Source: a virus
Virus record (IMG/VR): IMGVR_UViG_3300025117_000072
Location: 1-61,194 of that record
DNA: 61,194 nucleotides
Reading direction: 5' to 3' (one strand)
Part shown: positions 11,810 through 40,656 of the stretch, in pieces
How the letters are laid out: every line of letters begins with the position of its first letter
Position numbering within the stretch: position 1 is the first letter of the stretch
The notes under the pieces: model-generated
What the model was told of the DNA's origin: nothing
What the model saw: the letters and a program-made list of their open reading frames with translations, nothing else
Databases searched by the model: none
Position numbers and translations under genes: made by a program

Positions 11810-12123
11810 ACGAGAAGACGGCTCCTGTTCTCAAACCGCTGGACCTGCTTGTCCATTTCGTCCAGCTTCTTCTTGAGTTTCCAGGCTTCGCCCTTCCGCT
11901 TGGTCTCTTCGAGCTTGGACATGAACATGTCGAACTCGGCCCGGAGTTTGTGGTACTTCTCAGTCAGCCGCTTGTTTAGTGCGCTAATGGATTCAATCGC
12001 CTGCTTCGCAACGATAATGGCGTTCTCCTGCTCTCGGATATGCTCAACGAGTTTCAGCACTCTCGGTTCGCACGTATCGCAGAAACGGAACTCATCGAGC
12101 ATTGGGTCTTTGTCTTCACTCAT
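11806..12123 (-). CDS. Coiled-coil protein, 105 aa
   Basis: N-terminal Cys pair (FCDTCEP) followed by nearly continuous heptads from residue 20 to 100 (VLKLVEHIREQENAI, then KLEETKRKGEAWKLKKK). It overlaps the portal stop by 4 bp (ATGA), so the two are coupled. A head-assembly or accessory role next to portal is inferred from position; no family recognised. Confidence 0.75.
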   Translation of the reverse strand: MSEDKDPMLDEFRFCDTCEPRVLKLVEHIREQENAIIVAKQAIESISALNKRLTEKYHKLRAEFDMFMSKLEETKRKGEAWKLKKKLDEMDKQVQRFENRSRLLV

Positions 12124-14660
12124 TTCCTGCCCCTCATCTGTTTTTCCATTTCCTGTGTAGCAATATATTTAACTTGGCTATGAAGGTAATCTTTTTCTGG
12201 ATCAGTCAAGCCCATGCTATCTATATCTTTAAGGTGTTCAATTCCTTTGGCTATAGCATTTAGTTTCTGTATATTTATTTGTTCACCTTGTTGTGCAAAT
12301 GGACTTTTACCCTTTGCGATTCTGTACCTTGCGTAATCCATGGCCTTTCGTACAATGACATCGTTTGGCTGGCCGCCAGATAGCAAATGATTGACTTCCT
12401 GCTTTGTCAGTGTGGGGACTAGGGATGGAATTTCGATCTCTCTTCCATCAAGATTAACGCCAATGGATATTTCAGTTGAAACTTTCCCGTCCGGTCGCTT
12501 TAGTTCCCCCAGAAATCCTAATCCCTTTGGAGACCCATCTGATCGCGCCCCGTAGTGGTTAGGTATAACATTTCCGTCTTGTCCTGGAACAATCACTTCT
12601 GGGCCATTCTCTCCAACAATGTACGGCTGTCCAGCATTCACAGGACCACCGTATTGTCTGCCCTCTATAGGACTGCCGCCTTCCCCTCCCATGTCCGCCA
12701 CTTTTCCCTGGAGCGCGGTCGCTTCCTTGGCAAGCCGGACCTGCTCTTCCTTGAGCTTCAATTCTTCCTGCTGCACCTTCAGGTTTTGCTGCTCCACCTT
12801 CAGGGCTTCCTTCTGACCCTCAAGGCTCTGCTTGAACTCCTCCACGGCATCCTGAATCATCCGGGCAACCATCTCCTGTGTAAGCGGAGGCTGTCCGCCC
12901 TCCATCTCCCTGACTTCAGGCGGAAGCAGAGTTTCCAGTCTCTTGACCAACTTCTCACCACGCGGGATGTCCATGTAATCCACAAGCACGTCCGCAATGA
13001 GCGGGGCAATCTGCGGGGCATACTGCATGATGGCCTGAAGCCTGTCCAACGCCTCTTGTCTCTGTGTCGCGTAAGAAGGACCGGTCTGCATGATGATGTC
13101 GTGCTTACCGACTGTCAGGTCAACCTTCGGCTTCTGCTCCCCGTTCTCACCTTCTACAGTACGGTTTACGTCTTGTGTGGTGATGGTCTTCCCATCAATG
13201 CCGAGCATCTTGATTACCCTGGCCGTGTCGTAAATCTCCGGCCTCATGCTCTCGATCACGCGCCCGACTTGACGAATGGCCCTCACAAGGTTGTCATGAT
13301 AGGCGAAGGTAACGGCATCGTCCGCCGCTTTCCTTTCCCGTATGGCAAGCCCGGAGGTCTCGTTCGATTTCCTGCCAAGGGACGCTTCGTGAAGCCCGAT
13401 GATGTCCTTCTTCTCGATCTGCCGTTGCGCTCCCTGCTCTACAAGGCCGGATGGAATCTGAGGGGGAACCTCACGTCTAGGAAACACCCCAGGCATTTTT
13501 TCATCAGGGTTAGCATACAGAACTGGGGAATTGTCTGTGTTTGCTTGTCTCCATTGTGACTCGAATCCTTCAGTCATTCTAGGAGTTGCAATAAATGGGG
13601 CCTTTGGCTGAAGGGCCAGCAGTTCCGTGATGGCGCTCTGCGTGTAGATATACATCCGCTGCGGGTCTTTGGCGTACCGGAAGAGACCGCGATAGAGTTT
13701 CTTCCCGTTGACGTTCGCCTCTTTCCCCCAGACAGGAATGATCGGCCACAATTTCCCTGGTATCCGAATCGGACCTTCCAGAACAGCCGTACCAGAAATC
13801 TTCCGCCACACGATATCGAAGTCCTCGATCTCCCGTTCCTTGAGGATGGTGATTCCTTCAGCCGGTTTCTCTTTCAGGACTTCGTAATCTTCCTTCTCCT
13901 GATTGAAAATCAGGTAAATCTTCTTGGTCCCCTTGCGCTCTTTCCTGAACCACTCCGCAATCCGAACGGTCTTGTCATGAACGGAGTACCAGTCCTTCAG
14001 GTTCTCGGGCAACTTCTCGGCCTCGAAGTCGATCACTTGGGCATCGGGGTAGTCTTCCTTGAACTGATCTACCGGAATGTCGTCCAGCAGGAACATGAAC
14101 TTTCCATCGTTCTTGTGCCAGAGCCTTGCCCGTGGGTCGAACAGGACGTTCAGGGAATTATCGACAGGGGAAATCCTGATCTCCTGATTGAAGGCGTCCA
14201 CCACGTTCCGATACTCGTCCTTGATGTTACCCTCGTTGTCGAACACATCCTCGTTCTCGTACTGCGTCAGCACCCGGATGGCCCCGCAATACCCACGCGC
14301 AGCCGCATCCTCAAGGGCCATGTCATACGCTACATGAGCGTCTGAAACGTGCTCGATGTAGCGGATAAGCCCGCCCACGATTTCCGCCTTCTCGGGGTCC
14401 GTGTTGGAATCGACCGGCATGGCCTTGATACCCGCCCGGTTCATCCTCTGCGCGGCAGTCACTTTGTCGAGAAAGACAGGGAGGTCATTGGCGTTCAGGC
14501 AGGGACGGCCGGCGCGGTCGTTTTTGACAGTTTCGTCCCATTGATCCTCGGAAAACACGAAGGTTGAGTCTTCAACGGCCTTCTCCCGGTTGTCCTTCTC
14601 GAATTCAATGGCCGAGTTCGCCTGCTCTAACGCCGTTTTTATGAGGTCTTTTTCATCCAT
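12120..14660 (-). CDS. Portal protein, P22 gp1-like, with C-terminal extension, 846 aa
   Basis: Residues 1 to about 620 follow the P22-type portal pattern: an N-terminal FSEDQWDETVKNDRAGRPCL, a PVIPVWGKE-like wing, and the helical barrel region with NETSGLAIRERK. The dodecamer forms the DNA channel and binds terminase. P22 portal is 725 aa; this one is longer. After a Gln/Glu/Lys coiled coil (about 600-650), residues about 665-690 contain GQPYIVGENGPEVIVPG, a motif common in tape-measure proteins. Residues about 704-790 form a module nearly repeated at the N-terminus of the protein at 51668-54451. The DNA for the extension (about 12130-12660) is visibly more AT-rich. Confidence 0.9.
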   Translation of the reverse strand: MDEKDLIKTALEQANSAIEFEKDNREKAVEDSTFVFSEDQWDETVKNDRAGRPCLNANDLPVFLDKVTAAQRMNRAGIKAMPVDSNTDPEKAEIVGGLIRYIEHVSDAHVAYDMALEDAAARGYCGAIRVLTQYENEDVFDNEGNIKDEYRNVVDAFNQEIRISPVDNSLNVLFDPRARLWHKNDGKFMFLLDDIPVDQFKEDYPDAQVIDFEAEKLPENLKDWYSVHDKTVRIAEWFRKERKGTKKIYLIFNQEKEDYEVLKEKPAEGITILKEREIEDFDIVWRKISGTAVLEGPIRIPGKLWPIIPVWGKEANVNGKKLYRGLFRYAKDPQRMYIYTQSAITELLALQPKAPFIATPRMTEGFESQWRQANTDNSPVLYANPDEKMPGVFPRREVPPQIPSGLVEQGAQRQIEKKDIIGLHEASLGRKSNETSGLAIRERKAADDAVTFAYHDNLVRAIRQVGRVIESMRPEIYDTARVIKMLGIDGKTITTQDVNRTVEGENGEQKPKVDLTVGKHDIIMQTGPSYATQRQEALDRLQAIMQYAPQIAPLIADVLVDYMDIPRGEKLVKRLETLLPPEVREMEGGQPPLTQEMVARMIQDAVEEFKQSLEGQKEALKVEQQNLKVQQEELKLKEEQVRLAKEATALQGKVADMGGEGGSPIEGRQYGGPVNAGQPYIVGENGPEVIVPGQDGNVIPNHYGARSDGSPKGLGFLGELKRPDGKVSTEISIGVNLDGREIEIPSLVPTLTKQEVNHLLSGGQPNDVIVRKAMDYARYRIAKGKSPFAQQGEQINIQKLNAIAKGIEHLKDIDSMGLTDPEKDYLHSQVKYIATQEMEKQMRGRK

Positions 14661-16486: not shown

Positions 16487-16541
16487 CTGTAGTTGCTGTC
16501 TGTTTTATGGTGAAGTGTTGTCGCTAACGACTATGTAGTGT

Positions 16542-16611
16542 TAGCCCTGCCTCGCCGCGCCTTGCCAAGCCCAGCCCCACCAAGCCGTGCCGTGCCTAGT
16601 CTAGCCACGCC
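16542..16611 (-). repeat. GGYNN pentamer tract B (14 units)
   Basis: Read on the minus strand from 16611 to 16542, the sequence divides without remainder into 14 five-base units; 13 are GGY followed by two variable bases, and the third is GACTA. It starts 5 nt after the stop of the 165-aa gene. The phase and strand match tract A. See the findings. Confidence 0.9.
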
Positions 16612-16616
16612 ATGAT

Positions 16617-17114
16617 TCAAGAAGATGTTGATTCGCTGATCTTGGGTGGCTCAGGAGGAACGTCGAACTTTCTCTTACGGGACGCGTGAAGGATAAAAGC
16701 GCCCTTTTGAGCGTTTCGGATTTGTTGATCCTTAGCCTTGTCGCTCAACATTTGGAAGTTGACATGTATATTCACCTTGCACCCCTTCCTTATCCAAGCT
16801 ACGGCTTTTTCGAAACGCTTGATGACTTCCTTCGTTACTTGGTCATCCGGTACAGATACGGTGTAGCCTTCTCTGTATTTGTTGCTGAGGTGTATGTTGT
16901 GTTCCACCAGTAATTCCTGACTGAGGGAGTGAAGCGCGCTCATGTAATCTAAGTTACCCTTTTCGGATTCCTCGATCGTTGTGGGTTCCGGGATGCCCAG
17001 AAGGGTTCTCAATTCCTGGTGGCTGTAAAACAGTCCATAGCCTTTCTCTTTGACATCCTCAGCGATGTAATCCACCACTTCATGCCAAAGAGGATGCTTC
17101 TTGACTTCCTCCAT
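16617..17114 (-). CDS. Hypothetical protein of the GGYNN cassette, 165 aa
   Basis: Not a family I can name with confidence. Residues 1-65 (starting MEEVKKHPLWHEVVDY) look like a compact alpha-helical domain with SHQELRTLLGIPEP. Residues about 75-125 hold RFEK-type amphipathic helices and YTVSVPDDQVTKEVI. The C-terminus is basic and disordered, with ASRKRKFDVPPEPP. I recall similar LLG-containing, basic-tailed proteins in other temperate phages beside G-rich tracts, but cannot verify this here. A strong AGGAGGGGAAG ribosome site marks the start at 17114. Tract A lies directly upstream and tract B directly downstream, so both gene ends abut repeats. Confidence 0.8.
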   Translation of the reverse strand: MEEVKKHPLWHEVVDYIAEDVKEKGYGLFYSHQELRTLLGIPEPTTIEESEKGNLDYMSALHSLSQELLVEHNIHLSNKYREGYTVSVPDDQVTKEVIKRFEKAVAWIRKGCKVNIHVNFQMLSDKAKDQQIRNAQKGAFILHASRKRKFDVPPEPPKISESTSS

Positions 17115-17136: not shown

Positions 17137-17266
17137 TTGCCCTGCCAAGCCCTGCCCAACCTAACCTTGCCAAGCCCGACCAAGCCTCACCAAACCGCGC
17201 CCAACCCAGCCGTGCCTAACCATGCCGAACCGCGCCACGCCCTACCCTGCCAAGCCGAGCCCGACC
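17137..17266 (-). repeat. GGYNN pentamer tract A (26 uninterrupted units)
   Basis: Read on the minus strand from 17266 to 17137, 130 nt divide exactly into 26 units, every one beginning GGC or GGT followed by two freely varying bases (examples: GGTCG GGCTC GGCTT GGCAG). Two more in-phase units precede it (GGCGC, then TACTG). The GGY core is invariant while the other positions look random, so this is a periodicity under selection rather than a simple tandem duplication. It fills the 162-nt gap between the 198-aa and 165-aa genes. Confidence 0.95.
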
Positions 17267-17276
17267 CAGTAGCGCC

Positions 17277-17873
17277 TTACAACTTCACAACATTGAACCT
17301 TCCCAGCCTTGGCCGCTGCTCAAGAAGCCCGACGTAGCTCCCGGAATCCTTCGCAATATCCAGGACCGTAGAGAGGTTTATCACTCCGGTATCCACGTAC
17401 AGGGTGCATTCCAACGACCAATCGTGAAATATCGGCCTTGTCCGAACCACTTGCTGATTTCCGACCTTTACGATTGACGTATGGGCATGATCTTCGAAGA
17501 ATTTGTCCAAGTCAGGGTTTGGTATCTCCCTGCTCTCCTTGACGCTGATCTTTGCTCCCTTGTAGTTAAGGGGATGAAAGTCTTCCGCTACCATAACCCC
17601 GCTTCTGTACAGTTTTCCGTTCTTGTTTCTCTTGGCCCCTTCCCAGAAACATTTGTCTGTGCATTTTGCGGGAATAGCAACAATCCCTTCATGCAAGTAC
17701 AGCCCGGATTCCCATTCCAGCCTTGCGATTTCCCGGTGATCGTCATCGCTCTTTTTCCTCTTTGAGGTCAGAGCCTTCAGCGCCTTGGCGTAGGCATTTA
17801 GCGGATTCGCGGCCTTGTTGTCGTGCATGAGCAACGGACAAGCACCAGTAAGTTTAACTTTCAATTCCTCCAT
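17277..17873 (-). CDS. Hypothetical protein of the GGYNN cassette (LLMHD family), 198 aa
   Basis: Begins MEELKVKLTGACPLLMHDN, then YAKALKALTSKRKK and a conserved-looking RLEWESGLYLHEG. Later come RTRPIFHDWSLECTLYVD and the C-terminal YVGLLEQRPRLGRFNVV, a Gly/Arg-rich strand-loop. This strand-helix-strand layout with a terminal Gly-rich loop faintly recalls RAMP/Cas7-type RNA-binding folds; that is speculation. The ATG at 17873 has GGGGGG 9 nt upstream; a GTG at 17903 is an alternative. It is first in the cassette, downstream of a candidate promoter, and its stop is 10 nt from tract A. Confidence 0.82.
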   Translation of the reverse strand: MEELKVKLTGACPLLMHDNKAANPLNAYAKALKALTSKRKKSDDDHREIARLEWESGLYLHEGIVAIPAKCTDKCFWEGAKRNKNGKLYRSGVMVAEDFHPLNYKGAKISVKESREIPNPDLDKFFEDHAHTSIVKVGNQQVVRTRPIFHDWSLECTLYVDTGVINLSTVLDIAKDSGSYVGLLEQRPRLGRFNVVKL

Positions 17874-18347: not shown

Positions 18348-18641
18348 ATGAAAAAGATCCTCTGCGCCGTCGCCCTTGTCCTGCTTCTCGCTTCCGTCGC
18401 TTCAGCCCAATACCTTCAGTTCCACCCCGTAACGCCCAACAACCCACCCCCCTACCAGCCCTTCAATCAGTACGAGCACCAGCAGGCCGTCCGGCCCTAC
18501 ACCCAAGTTCCAGTCAGGCCCCTTCAGAATCCCTACGACCAGCAGAGGCAGAACATCAGCCCTCTGGGGAGCTACGCCAACCCGTATTACATCGCCCCGG
18601 TAAACCCCCGCTATGACCAGACAGGGAGCAGTTACCGCTAG
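18348..18641 (+). CDS. Exported Pro/Gln/Tyr-rich small protein, moron candidate, 97 aa
   Basis: Residues 1-20 form a Sec signal peptide (MKKILCAVALVLLLASVASA, cut before QYLQ). The mature part is rich in Pro, Gln, Tyr and Asn, with PPPYQPFNQYEHQQ and NPYYIAPVNP-like stretches and no clear domain, typical of a secreted or surface-coating peptide. It stands alone on the plus strand among minus-strand late genes with its own consensus promoter, the classic arrangement of a gene expressed from the prophage. Function is unknown; a role in host envelope or biofilm is an inference. Confidence 0.8.
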   Translation: MKKILCAVALVLLLASVASAQYLQFHPVTPNNPPPYQPFNQYEHQQAVRPYTQVPVRPLQNPYDQQRQNISPLGSYANPYYIAPVNPRYDQTGSSYR

Positions 18642-19009
18642 TAGCTCTTGCCCCTCGACTTGGCATACTCCTTCATGTCCATGTCCTGGGGCCTCTTCTT
18701 TCCCTCCACCCCGACAGAGGTAATCTGAATCTCCACCCGATGCCGGGTCTTTTCTTTCCCTTCCCCTGTCCCTGACTCCGAGATGGACACCTCCTTCACG
18801 TACCCCACGCCCTGAATCATCACCTGATCTCCTGCGTTCAACTTCTTCAGGGCCTCCACCTTCTCCACCTCATCCTTCCCGAAAGAAAGGCAAAGCCCGT
18901 AGGGATAGCGGTCCTGATCCTCGTAAGCCGCAATCGGCTTCATCTCCGCTTCCATTTCCTTCTTCGTCTTCTTCGGAATCTTCAGGTCAACGAGGTTCAT
19001 CGGTTTCAC
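18638..19009 (-). CDS. Capsid-staple-like protein, 123 aa
   Basis: Pattern of the small head proteins annotated as capsid staple in podo- and siphoviruses: an N-terminal VDLKIPKKTKKEMEAE segment, a central YPYGLCLSFGKDEVEKV strand-helix, and GDQVMIQGVGYVKEVS leading to HRVEIQITSVGV. Such proteins clamp neighbouring coat subunits. It ends 4 bp inside the moron gene on the other strand. Its position before the packaging genes fits. The family call is from memory of the pattern, so moderate. Confidence 0.6.
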   Translation of the reverse strand: MKPMNLVDLKIPKKTKKEMEAEMKPIAAYEDQDRYPYGLCLSFGKDEVEKVEALKKLNAGDQVMIQGVGYVKEVSISESGTGEGKEKTRHRVEIQITSVGVEGKKRPQDMDMKEYAKSRGKSY

Positions 19010-19490: not shown

Positions 19491-19566
19491 TGGAGCCGCA
19501 CGTAGGAATCGAACCCACAACCCGAGGTTTACAAAACCCCCGCTCTGCCAGTTGAGCTAGTGCGAC
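19491..19566 (-). tRNA. tRNA-Thr(UGU)
   Basis: 76 nt on the minus strand fold into a full cloverleaf: 7-bp acceptor (GTCGCAC with GTGCGGC), 4-bp D stem, 5-bp anticodon stem with loop TTTGTAA (anticodon TGT), 5-nt variable loop, T arm GTGGG-TTCGATT-CCTAC, discriminator T and an encoded CCA. It decodes ACA threonine codons. It lies inside the late operon. Confidence 0.97.
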
Positions 19567-25790: not shown

Positions 25791-27113
25791 CTATAATTCC
25801 TCATCATCTGTCGGCCTTAACGGTTGCTTTTCGACACTCCTGTCTGTGTCGTAAATCCGCTGCGTGAACCTCTCGAACTCGAGCATGGTCTTCCATCCCG
25901 CTTCGCCGTCTCGAGCCTTCAGACATTCAACTTCCATCCAAGGATCTTCTTTGTCCTTGCGGTAGAGGCTGAGGACCACATCGGCGTTCTGTTCTATGTC
26001 TCCGCTCTCCTTCAGGTCGCTGAGGATCGGGCGCTTATTATTTCTCTCCTCCACTTTTCTCGAGAGTTGGCAGAGGACCACAACCGGGCAGCCGAGATCC
26101 TTTCCGAGATCGCATAGCCGTTCACTTGTAAATGAGAGTTCATGGTGTCGACTCTGCGTCCGCTTCCTAGTTGTGGTCTTCTGGAGGTGGTCGACCATGA
26201 TCATAGATATCGGCCCATTCATGGCCACCGTTTCCGCCTTGGAATAGAGTATTTCGATGGTTTTGTATTTCGGGGAGTCTAATATCATTGGGTTTTTCTT
26301 GGATAGACGATCAAAAGTCTCGAGCAGGTCTGGCCACTGGCTGTTGTCGACAGTGCGGTTTCTGATCTTTGAGAGATAAATCTGTGAGTCCATCGCCACA
26401 CGCCGACGGCTTATTCTCTCGGCTGTCATCTCGAGAGAGAAAAACAGGGCAGTGCCGGGGTAGGATGTCGACACGTTCTCGAGGATGTTTAAGCCAAGGG
26501 CTGTTTTCCCGATAGATGGTCGGGCAGCGAGATATATCGTTGTTCCCGGCTCGAGGTGGTAGAGATACTTGTCCAGGTTTAAAAAGCCGGTCTTTGGTCC
26601 CTGTGGTGCATCCTCTTTCTCGAGGTGCCTTTGGATCTGATCCATGAGATCGTAGTTGCTGAGATGTTCCGGGGCCTGCCCGCTCTCGAGGGTGCGTATT
26701 CCCTCTTTGAGTGTCGACAGCGTATCCTCCAACGGTTCATGCACGGCAAACGCCTTATCCGCCGTCACCTGGCAGGCCGTGATGACCTGCCGCCTCTGCG
26801 AGTGCTCCCGGATGATTTCGGAGTGGGCTTTCCACCCGGCAGACGTGCTTACCGTATCGTGCAGTTCCCCTAGGTAGGGTATCCCTCCGACCGCTTCCAG
26901 TTTGCCGGATGCCCGAAGTGCAGCCTCAAGGGTGATGATGTCCATGCCCCTGCCGAGCGTCTGCATGGACCCCCAAATAATCTGATGCTTCTCAGGGTAA
27001 AAATCAGTCGGTACTAATTGTATTTGGCCTATGATTTCTGGCCGGATGAAGCAACCTGATAACAGTGCCTTTTCCGCTTCTAGGTCGTGGGGCAGCATCC
27101 TTACCTTTTCCAT
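25791..27113 (-). CDS. DnaB-like replicative helicase, 440 aa
   Basis: N-terminal DnaB domain (PHDLEAEKALLSGCFI, later DIITLEAALRASGKL) and a RecA-type ATPase domain with Walker A YLAARPSIGKTALGLN near residue 195. Further motifs are SLEMTAERISRR, IMVDHLQ as Walker B and VVVLCQLSRKVEERNNKRP with the arginine-finger region. Length is normal. The hexamer unwinds DNA at the phage fork and binds the loader, probably the DUF1376 product downstream. The ATG at 27113 has an AGAGGAATTG leader inside the overlapping small gene. Confidence 0.95.
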   Translation of the reverse strand: MEKVRMLPHDLEAEKALLSGCFIRPEIIGQIQLVPTDFYPEKHQIIWGSMQTLGRGMDIITLEAALRASGKLEAVGGIPYLGELHDTVSTSAGWKAHSEIIREHSQRRQVITACQVTADKAFAVHEPLEDTLSTLKEGIRTLESGQAPEHLSNYDLMDQIQRHLEKEDAPQGPKTGFLNLDKYLYHLEPGTTIYLAARPSIGKTALGLNILENVSTSYPGTALFFSLEMTAERISRRRVAMDSQIYLSKIRNRTVDNSQWPDLLETFDRLSKKNPMILDSPKYKTIEILYSKAETVAMNGPISMIMVDHLQKTTTRKRTQSRHHELSFTSERLCDLGKDLGCPVVVLCQLSRKVEERNNKRPILSDLKESGDIEQNADVVLSLYRKDKEDPWMEVECLKARDGEAGWKTMLEFERFTQRIYDTDRSVEKQPLRPTDDEEL

Positions 27114-27566: not shown

Positions 27567-27910
27567 TCCGCCAACCCTCCATGTCTCCCGCGCTTGCAGT
27601 GGATTCCATACTCTGCCGCCCGAGTCGTCACGGTTGACGTTGCCACCTTGATTTGCTTTGCAATAGCCTTGAACGTGCCGAGACTCCCGACCATTACCAG
27701 AAGCCACTCGCGCTCGTCTTTGTATCGGCCAGTCCAGTGCTTAGACAGGTCCAGCCGTTTGGCTCCACACTTCACGGTGTAGTCGTGTTCATGCCTCGGG
27801 TGTATATTTTCGGGTTCCTGCATCTCTTCGGGGTCGGCATACCTGACCCCCATGCGTGGTCGTGGGCAGATGTCGTCGGTTACGTCGGTCCAGGTTTCAG
27901 GAATGGTCAT
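27563..27910 (-). CDS. Small HTH-like hypothetical protein, 115 aa
   Basis: After an acidic start, residues about 60-110 contain EREWLLVMVGSLGTFKAIAK then QIKVATSTVTTRAAEYGIH: a helix-turn-helix pattern (KAIAKQIKVATSTVTTRA). It may bind DNA as a small regulator or replication accessory. It overlaps the methyltransferase gene by 4 bp. Confidence 0.68.
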   Translation of the reverse strand: MTIPETWTDVTDDICPRPRMGVRYADPEEMQEPENIHPRHEHDYTVKCGAKRLDLSKHWTGRYKDEREWLLVMVGSLGTFKAIAKQIKVATSTVTTRAAEYGIHCKRGRHGGLAE

Positions 27911-28596
27911 AAAAAGCTCTCCTGCTTGGGTTGCTCGGGCTTTACCGTGAACAGCTTCGGTTGTCGCAGATACCGCTTGATCCTCTCCACGGCCCCTGAC
28001 AGGTACTCTTCGTCTATCTCGTACCCTGTTAAGTGGAATCCAAGGTCATGGCAGGCGATCGCTATTGAGCCCGAGCCCAGGTGTGTATCAAGAATCGTGT
28101 CGCCCGGCTTGGCGTAGTTGGTCAGGAGCCAGCGGTAGAGGGCTACGGGTTTTTGGGTGGGATGGATACGCGGTTCAGTGAGAATGAATCCAGCGTTTGC
28201 ACAAAAATTGAATTTTTCCGCTCTCCCCACATAGGAAGTCCACGCAAATTCCCACTCACTGGCGTTTTGTTGATTGGGGCGTATCTTATCCCAACATAAG
28301 GGCTTTTGTGTTGGAGGGAGAGAATGGAAATTGCCGCCCCAAATGATTTGATTCTTGCTTACCCTAAAGAGCTGATTGAAATATTCCGGTTGCGGTGGGA
28401 TATCCCACTTGTCAGCACCAGACCCAACCATTCCTGTCCACCCATGTGTTGCCCCACCCGAAACAAGCCTCTTGCCTATCCCATACGGCGGGTCCACGGG
28501 GGCCAAATCAAAAGCCCGGTCCTGCATCTCCCGCATGGCTGGCAGGCAGTCGGCTAAGAACAGGCGGCAATGGTCGGTCTCAAAGTACGGTTTCAA
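27907..28596 (-). CDS. DNA methyltransferase (DPPY type), 229 aa
   Basis: Motif IV VDPPYGIG lies near residue 34 and the SAM-binding motif TILDTHLGSGSIAIA near residue 178, the order of beta-class N6-adenine or N4-cytosine methyltransferases; KPVALYRWLLTNYAKPGD lies between. No partner restriction enzyme is present, so it is an orphan enzyme that could protect phage DNA or mark hemimethylated sites. It begins with TTG after GGGGGAG. The usual target-recognition region is short, so site specificity cannot be predicted. Confidence 0.9.
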   Translation of the reverse strand: MKPYFETDHCRLFLADCLPAMREMQDRAFDLAPVDPPYGIGKRLVSGGATHGWTGMVGSGADKWDIPPQPEYFNQLFRVSKNQIIWGGNFHSLPPTQKPLCWDKIRPNQQNASEWEFAWTSYVGRAEKFNFCANAGFILTEPRIHPTQKPVALYRWLLTNYAKPGDTILDTHLGSGSIAIACHDLGFHLTGYEIDEEYLSGAVERIKRYLRQPKLFTVKPEQPKQESFL

Positions 28597-29492: not shown

Positions 29493-30605
29493 TCAAGAAC
29501 CTATAGACCCCCCGTTGCTGGTTCGTTTCTGCTTTACCAGTTGCTTCAGGTTATCGACGTTCACTCCCTCGTATCTCCTGGTATGGCGCAATGTGGTGTG
29601 TCCCGCAGCCTTGGAAGCAAGCAAGAGCTGGTCGCTGTGCTGTGTAATGAAGCTGTGTTTCGTGCCCTGGTAGAGAGTCACCTTGACGGGGCACCCTGCC
29701 CTTTCTCGGGCTTCATTCCAGGTGGTAGAAATGTGGCCGGTATAGGGAAGTCCCCCCTTGTCGATGAAAACATACGGGCTCTTGAGCCTGTTCTTTTTGA
29801 CAGCCTGAAGGATCTCGGCAACCGGGTCCGTGATAGGCATGTACCGGACTCGCTTCGTCTTGGTGAACTCCTCCAAGCGGGTCCTTCTTCCCTTCGAGAA
29901 CTTCCTTTTGATGACGATGATTCCCTTGTCTTGGTGGACGCAGTTCCATTGGAGGGCCATGGCTTCTCCCGTCCTGACAGGCCATGCACACAGGAACCGG
30001 AATATCGGGCGGTCATGTTCGGGGATCTCCGAAATGATTTTTTCCTGCCAGTAGGGAGTGAGCCAGGGGACCTCTTTTTCGGGGATCTCTATCGTGGGGA
30101 AATGCGGGACGCTTATAACGTCCTCATAGTCAACGGCTGCATCGGCAAGAATGGTATGGAGAAAGTCGAGATGAACTTTCCGTGTGGCCGGCGCGAGCCG
30201 GGGAAGACTGGACAGGTAATCCTTGATGTGGGCCTGTTTTATGGACCTCATGTCCATAGTTCCAAAGAACTCTATCGCCCTTGCGACATACCGCTCCACG
30301 TCCACAAGGGACCCCTTTGCATACCGGCTGCCCTTGACGACATTCTGCCGCCACTTCTCCGCGTAGGTGCCGAAAAGGAGCTCATTCTGAGCGTAGCCAA
30401 ACCATTTGCGGGGATTGAACCCCTTGCCTAGCTTTTCCAGGTCTCCGTTGATCAGGTTCGTGATCCGGTCGGCCCTTCCCCTGGAATCGATCGGTGTTCC
30501 ATCATCGCACCATGTACGGGTCCACTTCTTCCCCTGGTAGTACAGGTAAACGACAAAGCGCGGCTCCCCTGCATCTTGTCTCTGGTAGTATCTGCACCGT
30601 GACAT
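29493..30605 (-). CDS. int: Tyrosine recombinase (integrase), 370 aa
   Basis: N-terminal AP2-like/arm domain (YYQRQDAGEPRFVVYLYYQG, later KWTRTWCDD), a SAM-like core-binding domain (residues about 90-180), and a catalytic domain with the first Arg in VRTGEAMALQW and the C-terminal KAAGHTTLRHTRRYEG with the nucleophile Tyr. The second box reads GTKHSFITQ, with Lys where HxxR has Arg, a variant worth noting. It is near the phage regulators and the candidate attP. The start at 30605 has AGGGGAGGGGAGCC; longer in-frame starts overlap that site. Confidence 0.88.
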   Translation of the reverse strand: MSRCRYYQRQDAGEPRFVVYLYYQGKKWTRTWCDDGTPIDSRGRADRITNLINGDLEKLGKGFNPRKWFGYAQNELLFGTYAEKWRQNVVKGSRYAKGSLVDVERYVARAIEFFGTMDMRSIKQAHIKDYLSSLPRLAPATRKVHLDFLHTILADAAVDYEDVISVPHFPTIEIPEKEVPWLTPYWQEKIISEIPEHDRPIFRFLCAWPVRTGEAMALQWNCVHQDKGIIVIKRKFSKGRRTRLEEFTKTKRVRYMPITDPVAEILQAVKKNRLKSPYVFIDKGGLPYTGHISTTWNEARERAGCPVKVTLYQGTKHSFITQHSDQLLLASKAAGHTTLRHTRRYEGVNVDNLKQLVKQKRTSNGGSIGS

Positions 30606-30690
30606 AGGCTCCCCTCCCCTTTTTGGTATGAGGGCCATCTTACCACGTCTGCCTGTCAGTGGAAGGGGGGTCAAAGTAGGGTCTCCTGGG

Positions 30691-39298: not shown

Positions 39299-40051
39299 AT
39301 GCCCAACGAATGTCAGGTTATCGAGAAGCCCGAAACGGCTCTGCAGGTCCAGGGGGATTCTTTCATGTCCGTGATTGAACGGCTTGCTTCACGGCCCGAT
39401 ATCGACCCTACCAAAATCAAACAGTTCATGGATATGCAGGAGCGCATCCTTGACCGGAATGCAAAACAGGCATTCAACGCGGCCATGATGAGGGCACAAG
39501 CCAAAATCCCCACCATATTAAAGGACAAACCGAATCAGCAGACCAACAGCAAGTATGCTGCACTTGAAAGTATTCTCAAGATCATTAAGCCGCTTTACAC
39601 GGCGGAAGGCTTTTCTCTTATGTTTTACGAAGGCGATACACCAAAGGAAAAGCACATCCGCGTTTGTGTCGATATCATGCACGAACAGGGGCACACAGAA
39701 AAGCGGTTCGTGGATATGGCTATTGATGACGTAGGCATAAAGGGCAGTCCCAACAAAACGATTCCCCATGCCGAGGGGTCATCCTTTCTGTACGGTCGCA
39801 GGTATCTGACTTGCCTGATTTTCAACGTCCCAACCGGAGATGATGACGATGGAAACGGAGCCGGGGGAGTGGAGTACATCACCGAAAAGCAACTGTCTCA
39901 ACTTACCGACATGATAAACGACACTGAGACAAAGGAGGACAAGTTTATGTCCTTCATGAAGGTGGAGTCCCTTGACAAAATCCCCGCAAAACAGTTCGGC
40001 AAAGCTTTTGCGGCACTTCAGGCCAAGATGAAGAAGGGGAGCGCAAAATGA
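39299..40051 (+). CDS. erf: ERF-family single-strand annealing protein, 250 aa
   Basis: The ERF domain covers residues 45-180: DRNAKQAFNAAMMRAQAKIP, then SKYAALESILKIIKPLYTAE, FSLMFYEG, and a conserved GSSFLYGRRYLTCLIFNVPT. It anneals homologous strands during phage recombination and repairs breaks; it pairs with an exonuclease, the next gene. The C-terminal 60 residues are helical with YITEKQLSQLTDMIND. The start has an AGGAGGAAAGG leader. Confidence 0.92.
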   Translation: MPNECQVIEKPETALQVQGDSFMSVIERLASRPDIDPTKIKQFMDMQERILDRNAKQAFNAAMMRAQAKIPTILKDKPNQQTNSKYAALESILKIIKPLYTAEGFSLMFYEGDTPKEKHIRVCVDIMHEQGHTEKRFVDMAIDDVGIKGSPNKTIPHAEGSSFLYGRRYLTCLIFNVPTGDDDDGNGAGGVEYITEKQLSQLTDMINDTETKEDKFMSFMKVESLDKIPAKQFGKAFAALQAKMKKGSAK

Positions 40052-40656
40052 TAATTCTAGATTGCGATCAGCAAAGCCCTGAATGGTTCGCGGCCCGTGC
40101 CGGTAGGCCAACCGCTTCGTGCTTCGATCAGATCATCACCCCGAAGAACATGAAGCCCTCCGCAAGCGCCCAGAGATACCTTTACACCTTGGCAGGGGAG
40201 CGAATCACCGGAGTCAAGGCGGAATCTTTTCAAAGCGCATGGATGGAAAGGGGAACGCAGATCGAGGATGAGGCGAGAACCCTTTTTGAGATAGTACAAG
40301 GCAGAGAAGTAAAGAAGGTCGGCCTTGTCTATCCCGATGAGAAAAAGCTCTATTCATGCTCGCCTGACGGTCTCATGGAGATCGAAGGGTTGGAGGTGAA
40401 ATGCCCCGCCATGTACACCCACGTAGGCTATCTTCTAGGGGGATGCCTGCCGACTGATTACATTGCCCAGGTGCAAGGGTCAATGTTGGTCACAGGATAC
40501 CCGGCATGGTGGTTTCTGTCATACTATCCGGGGCTCCCGCCTTTCATGGTCAAGGTCTATCGGGATGACGCCTTTTGCGCCCGACTTCGCATCGAATTGG
40601 AATCCTTCTGTGAGCGGTTGGATGAGGTCGAGGCAAAACTGAGGAGACTTGCGTGA
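40048..40656 (+). CDS. YqaJ-type recombination exonuclease, 202 aa
   Basis: YqaJ-like PD-(D/E)XK fold: SPEWFAARAGRPTASCFDQI at the start, WMERGTQIEDEARTLFE, then SPDGLMEIEGLEVKCP carrying the catalytic D, E and K. It resects DNA 5' to 3' to make substrate for the ERF annealing protein, a lambda Red-like pair. It overlaps ERF by 4 bp. Length is normal and no key residue is missing. Confidence 0.92.
   Translation: MIILDCDQQSPEWFAARAGRPTASCFDQIITPKNMKPSASAQRYLYTLAGERITGVKAESFQSAWMERGTQIEDEARTLFEIVQGREVKKVGLVYPDEKKLYSCSPDGLMEIEGLEVKCPAMYTHVGYLLGGCLPTDYIAQVQGSMLVTGYPAWWFLSYYPGLPPFMVKVYRDDAFCARLRIELESFCERLDEVEAKLRRLA

Follow-up and report, generated by a model that had tools for sequence, protein, structure and literature searches.

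What holds a GG dinucleotide at every fifth position over 130 nt, in an intergenic region of an uncultivated temperate phage, while the bases in between vary? The question is raised by one locus in the IMG/VR virus record IMGVR_UViG_3300025117_000072, of which positions 1 to 61,194 were analysed (the whole stretch of 61,194 nt, hereafter the window). The first-pass annotation of this DNA noticed the pentamers and knew no named element with such a rule. A name is in fact available, namely the vrRNA tract of a Viral Interference Programmable Repeat (VIPR) system, a newly described RNA-guided DNA-recognition code which has been proposed as an ancestor of CRISPR.

According to the available text of the preprint on VIPR (PMC13142463; bioRxiv 2026.04.26.720920), the system consists of a RAMP protein, accessory vap genes and vrRNAs, and a vrRNA is made of 9-16 YNNGG repeats (alternating GGY and NN) and a structured tail. 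The NN pairs read double-stranded DNA with one base skipped per unit, usually at the codon wobble position, and the targets are competing phages. For relatives of the present locus the same text gives RNA expression, RNP formation, the 1-nt skip and repression. Our literature search on VIPR found no paper beyond this one. We consider it almost certain that the cassette in the window is the VIPR locus of a temperate phage, on the basis of its tracts, their association in strand with the genes, the homology and fold of Vipr, the homology of vap, and the gapped match of a second, shorter tract. The locus thereby offers an independent check, made by sequence only, of the gapped code in a phage distant from the characterised ones.

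The cassette and its RAMP protein

The core of the cassette contains the following features.

17277..17873, minus strand: vipr gene, encoding a RAMP-fold protein of 198 aa (phrog_4652), directly 5' of tract A
17137..17266, minus strand: tract A, 26 uninterrupted GGYNN units between vipr and vap, putative vrRNA variable region(s)
16617..17114, minus strand: vap gene, encoding an accessory protein of 165 aa (phrog_5926), between tracts A and B

Read from 17266 to 17137 on the minus strand, tract A divides exactly into 26 GG[CT]NN units with variable positions 4-5, just as first described, and it lies on the strand of its flanking genes. In 200 sequences simulated with an order-2 Markov model of the window, GGYNN runs reached 5 units at most, and YGGNN, GGRNN, RGGNN and other spacings gave no run of 6 or more units anywhere in the window. 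The tract is far beyond chance. The earlier proposal that a GG every 5 nt is selected holds, and so does the view that the tract is no copied tandem repeat. It is intergenic, with its first base about 10 nt past the stop codon of the 17277-17873 gene; each of its three forward frames contains stops or is of low complexity.

The gene 5' of tract A connects the locus with VIPR directly. Its product matched PDB 36pp_D, "SUSP1 Vipr protein", with an E-value of 7.6e-26 as a single sequence (phmmer), and a profile of 41 homologues matched the same entry with an E-value of 2.2e-42. In an AlphaFold model (pLDDT 93.3) it is predicted to have the RAMP (RRM core) fold of Cas7/Csm3, the best structural matches of the model over full length being Csm3/Cas7 (Foldseek; VIA Z 11.2, with a VIA library that ends in April 2026 and excludes the solved Vipr, 36pp having been found by sequence alone). 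The protein shares 33% identity with the Vipr of felixounavirus VpaE1 and 39% with that of Medea1, and its nearest relatives found (42% identity) belong to two loci, L361 and L362, which have the order vipr, tract, (inserted gene), tract, vap. The extra gene between vipr and vap, at 1450-2000 of L361 and in the same region of L362, is flanked by tracts.

Regarding the second gene, a profile search placed its family in 52 loci, among them those of felixounavirus VpaE1, Pseudomonas phage Medea1 and mycobacteriophage LittleE, where it follows vipr directly; as a member of this family, the 16617-17114 gene is a vap. This relationship makes the locus look like a type II VIPR, as known from Escherichia phage SUSP1 and a Pseudomonas fulva prophage (PMC13142463). 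With these it has in common a RAMP-fold Vipr homologue with a vap-type gene beside it, same-strand GGY/NN tracts, and a target in a competing phage read with a 1-nt skip at wobble positions. Unlike type II VIPR as presented in the available text of that source, the window has a tract of 26 units instead of 9-16, situated between vipr and vap and not outside the pair, and no recognisable tail after it. In VpaE1 (NC_027337), too, a member of this vap family comes after vipr; however, its GGYNN tracts are more numerous and shorter, five with 9, 9, 11, 13 and 12 units and similar 3' tails, and they lie outside the vipr-vap pair.

If the window locus resembles its relatives in function, tracts A and B would supply the guides (vrRNAs) of a VIPR system encoded by the phage, and the vipr product, a small Cas7-like RAMP protein, would polymerise along the RNA, probably with one subunit for each 5-nt unit. 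The invariant GGY would remain unpaired and the NN of each unit would pair with the target DNA, of which every third base would be skipped (NN-x-NN-x). Bound in this way to the DNA of a rival phage, the complex would block transcription. A protein assembling along RNA in steps of 5 nt, one of the suggestions of the first-pass annotation, is a good fit to this scheme; the two variable bases, then said to look random, would be guide sequence. By analogy with the relatives, the locus is presumably expressed and active. The class 1 CRISPR backbone subunits Cas7/Csm3 share the fold and, presumably, one subunit per short RNA step, whereas the window has a single small RAMP protein and a gapped two-letter code in place of a continuous spacer. 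No CRISPR array was present at the locus, which carries GGYNN tracts instead of repeat-spacer units, and no cas gene among the neighbours of the cassette, whose matches are to terminase, portal and unknown phage families.

The terminase site decoded from tract B

A second tract is located 540 nt beyond tract A.

16597..16611, minus strand: imperfect 5' extension of tract B (GGCGT GGCTA GACTA)
16542..16596, minus strand: tract B, putative vrRNA, 11 uninterrupted GGYNN units, the first 10 of which decode to a large-terminase target
16520..16545, minus strand: possible 3' tail of the tract B vrRNA, a stem-loop GCTAACACTACATAGTCGTTAGC predicted at -8.9 kcal/mol from a single sequence

The 11 perfect units of tract B are inside the published range of 9-16; extended to 16611, the tract has 13 of 14 units perfect, one GAC unit being counted. 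When one base is skipped after each unit, the first ten perfect units decode to the pattern ACNACNTTNGGNTGNTTNAANGCNGANAG, with 20 fixed bases, which has four exact matches in the viral contigs (viral_contigs) and exact matches in two of 395 genomes from the phylum of a Desulfovibrio genome. It has none in 399 genomes of an unrelated burkholderial order. All six matches lie antisense to one motif of the large terminase, LSAFNHPNVV (the protein was assigned to phrog_2 with an E-value of 9.5e-29), and every skipped base in all of them falls at a third codon (wobble) position. The last unit of tract B mismatches the target, and the NN bases of the 5' extension disagree with the predicted one.

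A control decoding with a 2-nt skip gave no match. The background was estimated from a 16-fixed-base pattern, which had four matches; by our own arithmetic, about 0.02 are therefore expected by chance in the viral contigs at 20 fixed bases, and about 0.002 in the 395 genomes. The six terminase sites are homologous, so they should be counted as one discovery and not as six independent events.

Since the terminase encoded in the window is another protein and lacks the tract B site, the guide is not aimed at the phage itself. Very probably, as judged from the decoded pattern, it is aimed at the terminase of a rival, which would be another lineage of tailed phages or prophages. The phylum of the matches gives a hint of the host range of this rival and, weakly, also of that of the window phage; vipr had no match in the class with the terminase matches. 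What is more, a short tract in an uncultivated temperate phage here spells a conserved terminase motif of a rival with the wobble bases all skipped. A guide chosen at conserved codons in this way would cover many related rivals, and six divergent terminases do match.

Tracts in other phages and other explanations

Viral contigs scanned with ten GGYNN units gave at least 120 stretches, and 307 of the 315 tracts among those listed from these contigs are non-tandem, with GGY fixed and NN varying. The first-pass annotation was right that G-rich pentamer tracts occur in other phages. With the permuted control YGGNN there were 100 stretches, but only 11 of 102 tracts were non-tandem, and several of these resemble GGYNN tracts in another register. 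Tracts of one locus share their strand in 81 of 81 cases. A Vipr homologue was found in 63 of 126 loci selected by tract, on the same strand for 95 of 95 tracts. When 79 loci were selected by the protein alone, a tract of six or more units was present on the vipr strand in 43 and on the other strand in none.

In all collected tracts, "AA" occurs at the second-last unit in 26% against 9% elsewhere, and "AG" at the last unit in 26%; this bias at the tract ends suggests a constant 3' boundary outside the guide, in agreement with the mismatched last unit of tract B.

These data bear on the other ways in which a GG spaced by 5 nt might arise. One is a structural element of RNA or DNA, above all a G-quadruplex, with GG-N3 as its spacing rule. 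Four adjacent units do formally satisfy the two-tier motif, as was pointed out at first, but ViennaRNA with quadruplexes allowed picks ordinary helices, and a quadruplex would account neither for the fixed Y nor for the neighbouring vipr and vap genes, the common strand or the decoded terminase target. We regard it as very improbable. An array of binding sites for some other protein with a 5-nt step, e.g. a RecT-like annealing filament or a small terminase at the packaging site, might be considered since the tracts of the window adjoin terminase and portal genes and the phage encodes an Erf-like annealing protein. Elsewhere, however, the tracts travel with vipr and vap and not with terminase or recombinases, being situated between tail genes in Medea1, beside DNA ligase in VpaE1 and beside tail genes in LittleE, and such an array is hardly to be credited. 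Finally, true tandem GGYNN repeats do exist and make up most of the matches in bacterial genome contigs scanned with 20 units, but a functionless low-complexity repeat kept by slippage is most improbable here, in view of the non-tandem tracts of the viral contigs.

Length and possible targets of tract A

With the VIPR reading preferred, tract A remains the unusual part of the locus, as its 26 units are above the published 9-16 repeats per vrRNA, unless the tract is processed or contains several guides. The 367 non-tandem tracts of at least 8 units from related loci most often have 10 units; 341 have no more than 16, and eight have at least 26. The long tract marks a length class beyond the published range. 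Only 22 nt separate its end from the ATG of vap, the ribosome site included; the 3' end of the tract abuts this ribosome site and hence there is no space for a tail. No recognisable internal repeat was seen in it.

Tract A is presumably a guide too, and we lean towards a functional guide of the published kind. Otherwise its guide could be long or composite, or the tract could be a leader also bound by Vipr. A form of VIPR with long or multiple guides, in which an uninterrupted array of 26 or more units stands in the leader of vap, is put forward tentatively, as the less likely case; it would cover a single long guide, overlapping guides from one array, or a Vipr-bound leader regulating the translation of vap.

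The search for a target of tract A in the contigs and genomes that hold the tract B target found none. With the exact 1-nt-skip pattern, units 18-26 gave three matches, AT-rich and not at wobble positions; units 14-22 gave none, and units 5-12 gave four, none of them extendable. The decoded peptides of 25-26 residues had no match in phages and plasmids (tblastn). Windows of 12 units with up to 3 mismatches, searched in 155 genomes of the class that contains the tract B target, gave two matches only, both with 3 mismatches, which we take as chance, the antisense wobble frames, read by eye, holding stops. Self-targets of tract A or B in the window's own genome did not exceed background, and when 359 tracts were compared all-against-all with 3.5 Mb of loci, no skip length was enriched beyond the loci chosen for that purpose.

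Among other long tracts, the same NN series occurs twice within L095 1188-1342 (nine units) and within L013 6801-7010 (five units), and these repeated blocks suggest concatenated guides.

As for the remainder of the window, the temperate phage encodes an integrase (29493-30674, minus strand), the Erf-like annealing protein with a RecE-like exonuclease (39299-40656, plus strand), a DnaB-like helicase (25791-27113, minus strand) and a DNA methyltransferase (27907-28596, minus strand), together with a P22-like portal (12120-14660) and a Gp10-like protein (18638-19009). The terminase region also contains a tRNA-Thr (TGT) gene (19491-19566, minus strand), situated slightly upstream of the VIPR cassette.
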